A stretch of 64,000 nt of DNA, taken from Bacteroidota bacterium (GTDB lineage Bacteria > Bacteroidota > Bacteroidia > Chitinophagales > Saprospiraceae). The notes under the pieces are model-generated. The model worked only from the letters and a program-made list of their open reading frames with translations. It was not told where the DNA came from and ran no database searches. Positions 57,617-63,814 of this stretch are shown piece by piece. Each line of letters begins with the position of its first letter. Positions within the stretch are counted from its first letter, which is position 1. A program made the translations under genes and the position numbers. The stretch is from NCBI GenBank assembly GCA_024642665.1, contig JAHEAR010000001.1, positions 9,152-73,151 on the forward strand, in the 5' to 3' direction.

Positions 57617-58954
57617 ATGACAAAACCGGTAGCAAACGCATTACCAAATACTGTTCGACAATTCCTGACAAAAAATGGAATTACGGAAGAAACCCGACTA
57701 CTGGTCGGCGTCAGCGGTGGTATGGATAGCATGGTATTGATTAACATTTTGTATGCATTGGAGTATAATATTTCGGTTAGCCATATCAACTTCAACTTGC
57801 GTGCAGAGGAATCCGATATGGATGCAGCCTTTGTAAAAGATTGGTGCAGTCAAAGGAGTATTCCATTTCTTATTTTAAATAAAATCACCAAAACCGTCGA
57901 AGCTGAGCTTCACATTAATACACAAACAGCCGCTCGAAAGATTCGGTATGACTGGTGGGATAAATTAGTTTCAAAACACCAATTTGATTTTGTGTGTACT
58001 GCACATCACCTGGATGATTCCATTGAAACGCTATTGCTCAATCTTTTTCGGGGATCCGGCATGAAGGGATTAAGAGGGATTCCAAAAAAAAGAGATCATT
58101 ATTTAAGACCATTATTAGCATGCCCAAAATCTGACATCGAAGCGTATGCCAATCAGTATGAGATTCCATTCAGAATCGATTCGTCCAACCTGACAGATGC
58201 TTACAGGAGAAATCGAATTCGGCACCACATCATACCTTTGCTGGAAGAAATCTATCCCAACTTGCACACCAGCATGAGCACCACCATTACCCGATTAAAT
58301 ACGGAATGGGAAACCATGGATTTTATGTATTCGCAGTGGGTCACAAATCATGTACAGTCGGTCGAACAGGGAGTGATGATCAATACAAAACAGGATACCT
58401 CTGCTTTCGTTTTGAGATGGTTGGAAGAACAAGGATTCCCATGGCCACTGGCCGCTGATTTTGTTTTATCTCCGAATCAGCATACCGGTCATTTTCTTGC
58501 ATATGATCAGCAACGATTATCCAGAACTGACTTTGGATATTTTTTGGAAGACTTTAAAACACCTGTTCAAATCGCCATCCCTCACACGGGAAAATATAGC
58601 TTTGAAGAATTTGAATTTACAGTGGAGGAAATAAAAGATACATCTGAGATGCACTTTGATGATCCATGGACTGTATATGTATCTCCATCCGCACTGCAAT
58701 GGCCATTGATGATCAGAAGTGTGCAGCCCGGAGATGTTTTTCAGCCTTTTGGCATGGAAGGGAAACACAAAAAAATTCAGGATCTGATGGTCGACCTCAA
58801 ACTTGAGATGTTTGAAAAGAATCGATTGCTTTTATTGGAAAATAATGAGCACATCGTTTGGGTGATTGGCAAACGGCTTGATGAAAGAGCAAGGGTACTG
58901 GCTGATGATCATCCCATCACCCGCCTAAAATTTGAGTTAAAGTCAATGGTTTAA
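57617..58954 (+). CDS. tilS: tRNA(Ile)-lysidine synthetase
   Basis: LLVGVSGGMDSMVLINIL (SGGxDS), TAHHLDDSIETLLLNLFRGSGMKGLRGI. Confidence 0.95.
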   Translation: MTKPVANALPNTVRQFLTKNGITEETRLLVGVSGGMDSMVLINILYALEYNISVSHINFNLRAEESDMDAAFVKDWCSQRSIPFLILNKITKTVEAELHINTQTAARKIRYDWWDKLVSKHQFDFVCTAHHLDDSIETLLLNLFRGSGMKGLRGIPKKRDHYLRPLLACPKSDIEAYANQYEIPFRIDSSNLTDAYRRNRIRHHIIPLLEEIYPNLHTSMSTTITRLNTEWETMDFMYSQWVTNHVQSVEQGVMINTKQDTSAFVLRWLEEQGFPWPLAADFVLSPNQHTGHFLAYDQQRLSRTDFGYFLEDFKTPVQIAIPHTGKYSFEEFEFTVEEIKDTSEMHFDDPWTVYVSPSALQWPLMIRSVQPGDVFQPFGMEGKHKKIQDLMVDLKLEMFEKNRLLLLENNEHIVWVIGKRLDERARVLADDHPITRLKFELKSMV

Positions 58955-60117
58955 GAAAAAACAAAAACAACCATAAAGGCAGTGACGGTCACAATGATGC
59001 CATACATAAAAATGGTGTAGCATTTACGCAGATAGGAATATTTTGCGCCCAGGGTTTTACCCAGAAAAAACAAATCGCGCATAATCGTGGTATCAAGAAT
59101 GGAATCATCTGCGATGGTCGCATCCATTCCTTCTCTGTATTCCTGGAAACTCATCCGATAAAAATTTCCAAAAAAGAACAGGTTTGACTTTTTCTGCAAA
59201 ATACTCTCCATACTACTATAGCCTTTCATTGGAATTGGCTTAGTCGCCAGGGTGGCGAAAATCATAGATACAAGACATACGATCAGAAGGAGTATCGTTG
59301 GAATTAAAAGCATTCGATTGCTCGTTATTTCTTTGCCTAATAAGGGCAATGCAAATGTGATGATCAGGGCGTTGACAGAAAGCATGATATTTGCTTTATT
59401 GTCTGCAATTGAGCTCAGATCAATATGATTTCTAAGGGCTGTTTTAAATTGGGTCTGAGCAGAGCGGCTGGTACCGATGGTATAATTTCCTTCCGCAGCT
59501 TCTGATTTTCGCTCTTCCAGTCTCTCGACTTCCTCTTCCAACAATCGTTTATTTTCAAGTTTGGGTTTATCATATTTGGCTTTCCCAATATCAGAATAAT
59601 ATCGATGTTCATTTAAAAACTTCAGATTCGCCAATGTCCATTCGGAGCTGCTATAGTTCGCTTGCTGCAGCGCATTTAATTCTTTACGGAGTGTATTAGT
59701 GACAATGCTAAACTGTGGCTTTCCCAATGAACTTGTATCTGCATCTTTGATGAGCTTTTCCAAATGATTTTTGGGCTCAGTTTCAATTCTGGTAGCCAGT
59801 ATTAAACCGGTAATGGTCTCAATTTTTTCTTCGGGATAGCCTTTTTCAGATAAAAATGATTTTGCCAGTTGCGCTCCAACCTCTTCATGCCCCGTAAAAG
59901 TTTCAGAGAATCCGGCATCATGAAATAAAGTAGCCAGATTTAACATTTCCAACTCTTCGTTACTCACGTGAGCCAATCTGGCAAGATAATTTACCTCATC
60001 ACGAACATGGCAGGTATGTTCCCAATTATGGTACAAATAAATGTTGGAAGGTATCTTCTCGTCGAAAATATGCCGCACATATGCTTCGGCTTCTATGACA
60101 ATATCAGAATGATTCAC
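58951..60117 (-). CDS. HD-domain phosphohydrolase fused to Pycsar-effector-like membrane domain (DUF5706/PycTM-like)
   Basis: N-terminal HD: YHNWEHTCHVRDEVNYL...LATLFHDAGF...GHEEVG...KDADTS; C-terminal RNHIDLSSIADNKANIMLSVNALIITFALPLL plus two further TMs. Confidence 0.85.
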   Translation of the reverse strand: MNHSDIVIEAEAYVRHIFDEKIPSNIYLYHNWEHTCHVRDEVNYLARLAHVSNEELEMLNLATLFHDAGFSETFTGHEEVGAQLAKSFLSEKGYPEEKIETITGLILATRIETEPKNHLEKLIKDADTSSLGKPQFSIVTNTLRKELNALQQANYSSSEWTLANLKFLNEHRYYSDIGKAKYDKPKLENKRLLEEEVERLEERKSEAAEGNYTIGTSRSAQTQFKTALRNHIDLSSIADNKANIMLSVNALIITFALPLLGKEITSNRMLLIPTILLLIVCLVSMIFATLATKPIPMKGYSSMESILQKKSNLFFFGNFYRMSFQEYREGMDATIADDSILDTTIMRDLFFLGKTLGAKYSYLRKCYTIFMYGIIVTVTAFMVVFVFS

Positions 60118-62247: not shown

Positions 62248-62673
62248 TCACTTTGCAAATAATAAGCCAATATCCCTGAAAGCCTTAAATTCCAGTGCAT
62301 TACCGCATGGGTCACGAAAAAACATGGTAGCCTGCTCACCATTTTGCCCTTTAAAACGGATATAGGGCTCAATATCAAAGGGAATACCTGCTTTTTTGAT
62401 TTTTTCGGCCAACTTCTCCCATTCTTCCCATGGTAATACAACCCCAAAATGTGGAATTGGGACATCATGCCCATCTACCGGATTTGAATGAGATGAAAGC
62501 TCACTTTTTGCTTGATAATGGATGACCAATTGATGCCCATAGAGATTATAGTCCGTCCAATGCGTATCACTACGACCTTCAGGGCATTCGAGCACATGGC
62601 TGTAAAAATGACGTGCAGTTTCAAGATTATCTACCGGAATAGCCAGATGAAAAGGGGCGAGAAATGAAGACAT
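62248..62673 (-). CDS. VOC-family (glyoxalase/bleomycin-resistance-like) protein
   Basis: [28 protein letters not shown]...[15 protein letters not shown]. Confidence 0.92.
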
Positions 62674-62686
62674 TTTATGGATAAAA

Positions 62687-63760
62687 TTATTTAGTGATGG
62701 AATGTTTGGATTGTACTCTGCTAACTAAAAAAGGAATAATGACACCTCCCAGCTTTCTTACGAGTTTGTCAAGCCAGGAAATTTTAGCTGCCCCAGCAAC
62801 GATTCTTGAGGAAAAAAAATAATACAGGGAAATAAATTGTCTTCCTGTAAATGTCTTTGCCAGCACATGATCTCGGTATCGTGTCATGACTTCATATTCC
62901 GGGCTATACGTGGAATAGCAATAGGTCACCACAAAACACGCTTGTCCCTTCAACCTTGCATTGAGATGATAAGTCACCGGTGGCTCCTGACGCTCATGAC
63001 AGGTCAATACAATTCGCCCGCCGGAAGGTCGCTCACCAAGTCTGACGGCGCTAAAAAGTGCATTTGTTCGAATAGAGGCTCCTCCATAAAGCATGCCGGC
63101 TATAAATTCACCCTTGCCCCAGTGATCGGCCATAATTTGATTTTTTCTTGGGTCTATCAACGCCGGAAGATCCAGATGCAGATAGATATTCCTCTCAGTC
63201 GGATTGGATAGTGTGATACCGAGATTATACCATTCTGTTCCGACACCTTCTGTGGCCTCCCATTTGACTTTCATCCTGAGATACGGCTCTATTTCCTCTG
63301 GAATAATTGGACCGGGTTGCGCTTTAATTTCTTCCATAGGATCCTTTCCTTCATAAAACAAGGCACTAAGGGCAGTATACAAGGCATCCCAATCCCACAG
63401 CTCAATTCCGGTTTCATCCGCAAGGCTTCTGCCCTCTTCAGTAAATCCGACATTCGTAATCACCCAAAAATACTGGGCCTCAAGCTCGTCCATCACCTCC
63501 CCTGCCTTCTCGATGATTTCCGAATCTACGGGCTGATCGTTATTTTTATGGACCGGATAGATCAGATGTACCTTTCCTCTTTTTTCTGCCGTTATAATCT
63601 CTGCATATGCCGGCGAAGCTTGGGCGGGTAAAATTTTAAATCCATCCTCTTGAAACAGGTAGGAGATAAAATCCTTAAAAACCAGTGGATTCAGGGCTTT
63701 GAAGTGAAAAGGAATCGATTCCTTCAGGAAATATCGTATATCTACCTCTTTAAAGTCCAT
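62687..63760 (-). CDS. Mrr-like nuclease-fold protein with CFI-box-like C-terminal domain
   Basis: N-terminus [21 protein letters not shown]...[31 protein letters not shown] (Mrr_cat-like); C-terminus [44 protein letters not shown]. Start [12 protein letters not shown] about 63760. Confidence 0.65.
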
Positions 63761-63814
63761 GTTTGACAGAAAAATAATAATTTCGGCACTCGATAGATAA
63801 TAAATAATTCCCAT

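Follow-up and report, generated by a model that had tools for sequence, protein, structure and literature searches.

A Mrr-fold protein of Saprospiraceae with lost catalytic residues and constraint shifted to an Ig-like middle domain

What does a protein do if it has the fold of a restriction endonuclease and none of the residues of its active site? This question is raised by an open reading frame at positions 62687-63760, on the reverse strand, of the 64,000-nucleotide stretch of DNA analyzed here (the window). An earlier note, made by reading the sequence, described the product as a Mrr-like domain with an apparently degenerate active site joined to a CFI-box-like C-terminus. The frame is complete, encodes 357 amino acids and was confirmed as real. 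It is a single-copy gene, and no second Mrr_cat gene was found in the genome, which is 98.3% complete. Since it is the sole Mrr_cat gene, a role as a regulator of an active Mrr twin is unlikely.

Both halves of the protein were recovered by profile searches. The Mrr_cat profile (PF04471, Pfam) matches residues 21-128 (63377-63700, reverse strand) with E=1.2e-8 and 35.5 bits against a cutoff of 21. The PD-(D/E)xK fold of this domain is also seen in the AlphaFold (AF2) model, where its pLDDT is about 76-95, and in a Foldseek search, where the top match is 1y88 (AF1548) and MspJI (4f0p) is also matched. The CFI_box_CTERM profile (NF041770, NCBIfam) matches residues 275-336, at the C-terminal end of the protein, with E=1.1e-11 and 44.3 bits; this score is modestly above the curated cutoff of 40 and is backed by an alignment to relatives, several of which fall just below the cutoff. 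The same-genus ortholog scores 47.5 bits. The CFI module as a whole (residues 273-357; 62690-62944, reverse strand) has a net charge of +8 and is all-helical in the AF2 model (helices 277-282, 287-298, 304-326, and 328-355). Its Cys275 is present in all 12 family members that have a CFI box.

The two-domain layout proposed earlier overlooked a third, middle domain. It is an Ig-like beta-sandwich at about residues 155-270 (62951-63298, reverse strand), seen in the AF2 model (at about 162-267) and supported by Foldseek. Its Foldseek matches are ApaG, FixG, transglutaminase, and MSP-type sandwiches; overall TM-scores in the Foldseek search are low. The C-terminal half modelled alone has the same fold as in the full-length model (mean pLDDT 78.4), whose pTM of 0.46 is low, so that the relative arrangement of the domains in it is unreliable. 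The family profile, searched against PDB sequences, gave only chance-level cellulosome matches.

PD-QxK is the accepted site of the Mrr_cat domain (PMC12707154, PMC11037411). We located the catalytic positions E29, D55, Q68, and K70 in a gap-free alignment to intact relatives. The window protein has K, I, Y, and V at these positions, and the ortholog has E, M, H, and V. Specifically, the catalytic Glu position (residue 29; 63674-63676, reverse strand) is Lys, the Asp position (residue 55; 63596-63598, reverse strand) is Ile, or Met in the ortholog, and the Q-x-K position (residues 68-70; 63551-63559, reverse strand) reads Y-P-V, or H-P-V in the ortholog. The alignment thus shows that none of the four canonical catalytic residues survives in the window protein, and that the ortholog has lost three of them, D, Q, and K. 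The earlier reading was right about the loss of the active site, including the missing Q-x-K, but its Glu was placed one residue off: position 55, where the Asp would be, is Ile, and Glu54 precedes it.

A nuclease could in principle have kept its activity by relocating catalytic residues, e.g., to Glu54, Glu59, Lys60, or Lys72. Migration of catalytic residues is known from PD-(D/E)xK enzymes, and E59, K60, and H71 are common to both orthologs. However, Glu54 is replaced by Gly and Lys72 by Ser in the ortholog, Glu59 and Lys60 lie at a strand end near a turn in the AF2 model (strands 56-60 and 63-70), and the intact relatives have their site at the standard positions. We consider an active, relocated site highly improbable.

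To place the protein within its family, a CFI-box search over 298 genomes of the bacterial family was combined with follow-up searches. A nine-member alignment that included broken members had no conserved stretch, and the search was repeated with intact members only. Altogether 12 relatives with the Mrr-Ig-CFI architecture were found, several of them on contigs of metagenome-assembled genomes (MAGs). Eleven belong to the Saprospiraceae-like family of the window. These include the ortholog, which is 59% identical and lies in a conserved gene block of the other genome examined for the genus, and relatives in Membranihabitans (three genomes), in one Lewinellaceae MAG, and in a six-genome genus of Saprospiraceae MAGs. 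The latter genus has the gene in 6/6 genomes, and in one of them (G136) the CFI box is lost. In this G136 relative (L093:1450-2316, L098:7080-7260) a short basic aromatic tail, GGLLYRIFRWPFPRR, stands in place of the whole box, and in the active site Q has become R and E has become Q. The twelfth relative, from a MAG recorded as Clostridia, has a canonical CFIATAAYG box; a class-level search of 17 genomes around it gave no other carriers. Among 399 evenly sampled genomes of the order, none outside the bacterial family had a full-length member, and no full-length relative was found in phages. Viral contigs contain a Mrr-alone relative only, and nothing for the Clostridia member. The gene of the window genus was most likely inherited vertically within the bacterial family.

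The E/D/QxK site is intact in 8 of the 13 family members. Because most members retain it, the degeneracy, as judged from the family alignment, is a secondary event within the Mrr-Ig-CFI family. Broken sites also occur in the sister genus: Q/H/Q/R in G296, Q/D/R/K in G136, and E/D/K/L in G960. The tree suggests three changes, two of them, the weaker ones, in the sister genus, while a single origin of the broken sites is, strictly speaking, still compatible with its best-supported branches taken alone. The suggestion that the architecture was undescribed seems fair, as our literature search found no paper that names the CFI box; yet the protein belongs to a small family, most members of which have an intact site.

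Losses of this kind could mean that the gene is what remains of a lost restriction-like defense gene and is decaying into a pseudogene. This would agree with the apparently repeated loss of catalytic residues in the sister genus, with the lack of the CFI box in G136, and with the very long stem branch that leads to the window genus. On the other hand, the frame is open, and both examined species of the genus retain the gene at the same place. Comparison of the window gene with its ortholog gives dN of 0.33 and dN/dS of about 0.08 (about 0.19 for the Mrr part alone), values that are approximate, as dS is near saturation. Such ratios show that the gene is under continued purifying selection and is not decaying.

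Two further observations speak against decay, which is improbable in our estimation: the Ig-like domain is tightened, and a divergent regulatory region is conserved. The latter is the intergenic region at 63761-63814, common to the Mrr-Ig-CFI gene and a divergent rhodanese lipoprotein gene. It is identical at 49 of 54 nucleotides between the window species and its sister species, and its would-be “third positions” are identical at 17 of 18. Both counts point to a regulatory region rather than a coding extension, and by its conservation the stretch looks like a divergent regulatory region. It is strongly conserved at the DNA level although synonymous sites of the two species are near saturation. 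An upstream start at ATG 63814, which would add 18 codons, was rejected since these 54 nucleotides are conserved DNA and not coding; Met 63760 is the best choice for the translation start.

The distribution of constraint along the protein differs between broken and intact members. In the broken pair of the window genus the Mrr domain is 48% identical and the Ig-like domain 79%, whereas in same-genus intact pairs Mrr is the most conserved part (70-90%) and the Ig-like domain is 54-73% identical (interaction z from -4.0 to -5.9 for the reversal). With separate branch lengths estimated per domain on a fixed tree, the ratio of Mrr to Ig rates reaches 5.9 on one and 2.6 on the other of the two branches in the window genus, and it does not exceed 1.3 on any branch elsewhere. 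By identity and by branch rates, the Ig-like domain is the most constrained part of the protein within the genus. Counting only residues that do not vary among intact members, the window protein retains 11/35 in Mrr, 5/6 in Ig, and 7/7 in CFI; the Mrr stretches QVKR, KVGV, and NQVxG are mostly lost. The alignments show that in the window-genus lineage specifically the Mrr domain has lost constraint and the Ig-like domain has gained it, a shift that rests on one pair, since the window-type version is present in two species only. The partly broken members G296, G136, and G960 have no such shift. Recombination or gene conversion was rejected as the cause of the conserved middle domain, since there, as in the other two domains, synonymous differences have reached saturation or come close to it.

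The same data bear on the idea that the dead nuclease is a nucleic-acid sensor, in which the Mrr fold would bind (modified) DNA or RNA without cutting it and signal via the Ig and CFI parts. Inactive enzyme domains have been described as effectors in conflict systems (PMC7159879). The fold is retained at good AF2 confidence, intact relatives match the Pfam family of NACHT-associated inactive restriction endonucleases, and the CFI box is elsewhere fused to nucleic-acid-binding domains, e.g., a cold-shock domain with a zinc-ribbon-like segment. However, the window protein itself has no match to this Pfam family (PF22722, NA-iREase1) at E<=10, 24 of the 35 invariant Mrr residues are gone, and within the window genus it is the Mrr half that evolves fast. 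This dead domain is also acidic, with charges of -13 and -17 in the two orthologs against 0 to -7 in 7/8 intact members; since one intact member, G112, matches this acidity, charge taken by itself carries little weight. Since the Mrr half is both released from constraint and acidic, a DNA-sensor role is disfavored, and we regard the sensor reading as unlikely. The link to DNA put forward in the earlier note is thus not supported so far, as the dead Mrr keeps few invariants and is more acidic than most intact members.

Nor do the surroundings of the gene support so far the proposed roles in sensing and defense: it is a single-copy gene in a conserved block, with no clear defense island at the locus in the window genus. 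A VOC/glyoxalase-fold gene follows downstream (62248-62673, reverse strand) after a gap of 13 nt, with a 4-nt overlap in the sister species, and the two genes are probably cotranscribed. Gene order around the locus is conserved in the sister species (16 matching ORF pairs), and in both species Mrr-CFI, VOC, trypsin-like, and HD-PycTM genes follow each other on the same strand. The last of these (58954-60117, reverse strand; 74% in the sister species) fuses an HD domain to the transmembrane module of the Pycsar effector PycTM. ZorD/PDC-S02 matches by PADLOC were set aside because they derive from the Mrr domain only.

The shared gene order might mean that the protein is a component of a local stress or defense operon together with its same-strand neighbors. 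PycTM is a Pycsar effector model, and at L032:4675-7086 the Clostridia relative lies near a bSEFIR defense gene (E=2.4e-72), the only defense-like context seen for the family. However, linkage is uninformative here since the whole surrounding block is common to both species. Relatives in other genera have different neighbors (proline racemase, a pyruvate dehydrogenase subunit-like gene, DUF697, phosphatidyltransferase), and no Pycsar cyclase was noticed beside the locus. Membership in such an operon appears quite improbable.

The explanation that we prefer, at somewhat better than even chances, is a non-catalytic binding or scaffold pseudo-nuclease, i.e., a dead descendant of a Mrr-Ig-CFI protein in which the Ig-like domain works and the CFI tail localizes. 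The window protein would no longer cleave DNA. The Ig-like domain, extending into the beginning of the CFI box, would bind a conserved partner and do the work, as its rate of evolution suggests. The Mrr fold may be kept as a structural or dimerization platform, and the basic helical tail may set the location at the inner membrane face or in an assembly. The intact relatives would be tethered type-IV-like DNases. A bolder form of this explanation is less probable: a neofunctionalized pseudo-nuclease whose working surface has moved to the Ig-like domain and which, localized by its CFI tail, has gained a new conserved partner as an adaptor or sensor. The family would then be a repeated route from restriction enzyme to signaling scaffold.

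Membrane association of the protein is plausible from its basic helical tail; there is no transmembrane helix in the window protein (maximum 19-residue hydropathy 1.13). The tails are modestly amphipathic: they exceed shuffled sequences at P<0.05 in 6 of 19 cases, with P=0.19 for the tail of the window protein. CFI boxes are also found at the end of cold-shock, zinc-ribbon, and TPR-like proteins in which no signal peptide is obvious (L102:1653-2234, L057:1453-2262, L071:1456-2337, L077:721-1761), which argues against a pure secretion signal.

The family provides a comparative case in which a restriction-type nuclease has become a probable non-enzyme, for which intact relatives from the same bacterial family serve as controls and the move of constraint from one domain to another can be measured. 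The CFI box is a widespread C-terminal module for which no published study was found; it forms the tail of several proteins that lack an obvious signal peptide and of which some are related to nucleic acids, and its function is testable.

Among known systems, the profile match and the predicted structure place the window protein with Mrr_cat nucleases such as EcoKMrr and MspJI, whose PD-(D/E)xK Mrr fold it shares. It differs from them in lacking the catalytic E/D/Q/K and a recognized modified-base reader (no winged helix, SRA or similar domain was matched by Pfam, and the middle domain is Ig-like), and in having Ig-like and CFI-box domains. With the CFI-box-CTERM proteins (NF041770) it shares the C-terminal helical module with the invariant Cys, R, and YY; in contrast to other carriers (cold-shock, zinc-ribbon, TPR, and CAP proteins), its CFI box is fused to a Mrr-Ig N-terminus. 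NACHT-associated inactive restriction endonucleases (PF22722) offer a likeness of idea, a dead REase fold serving as a non-catalytic module, although the profile does not match the window protein and no NACHT protein is present among the neighboring genes scanned.

A parallel in layout is a Mrr-WYL-CFI protein of the haloarchaeal Haloquadratum walsbyi plasmid PL47 (WP_052288770.1, L100:7938-9719), which RefSeq already labels “CFI-box-CTERM domain-containing protein”. Its gene adjoins a second Mrr gene that ends in a hydrophobic transmembrane-like segment, as read by eye; this end of the neighbor is a hint that localization may be among the tasks of the CFI tail as well. Like the window protein, WP_052288770.1 has Mrr at the N-terminus and a CFI box at the C-terminus, but its GxD..QxK site is intact and its middle domain is WYL, and because of these two differences it is probably an independent fusion.
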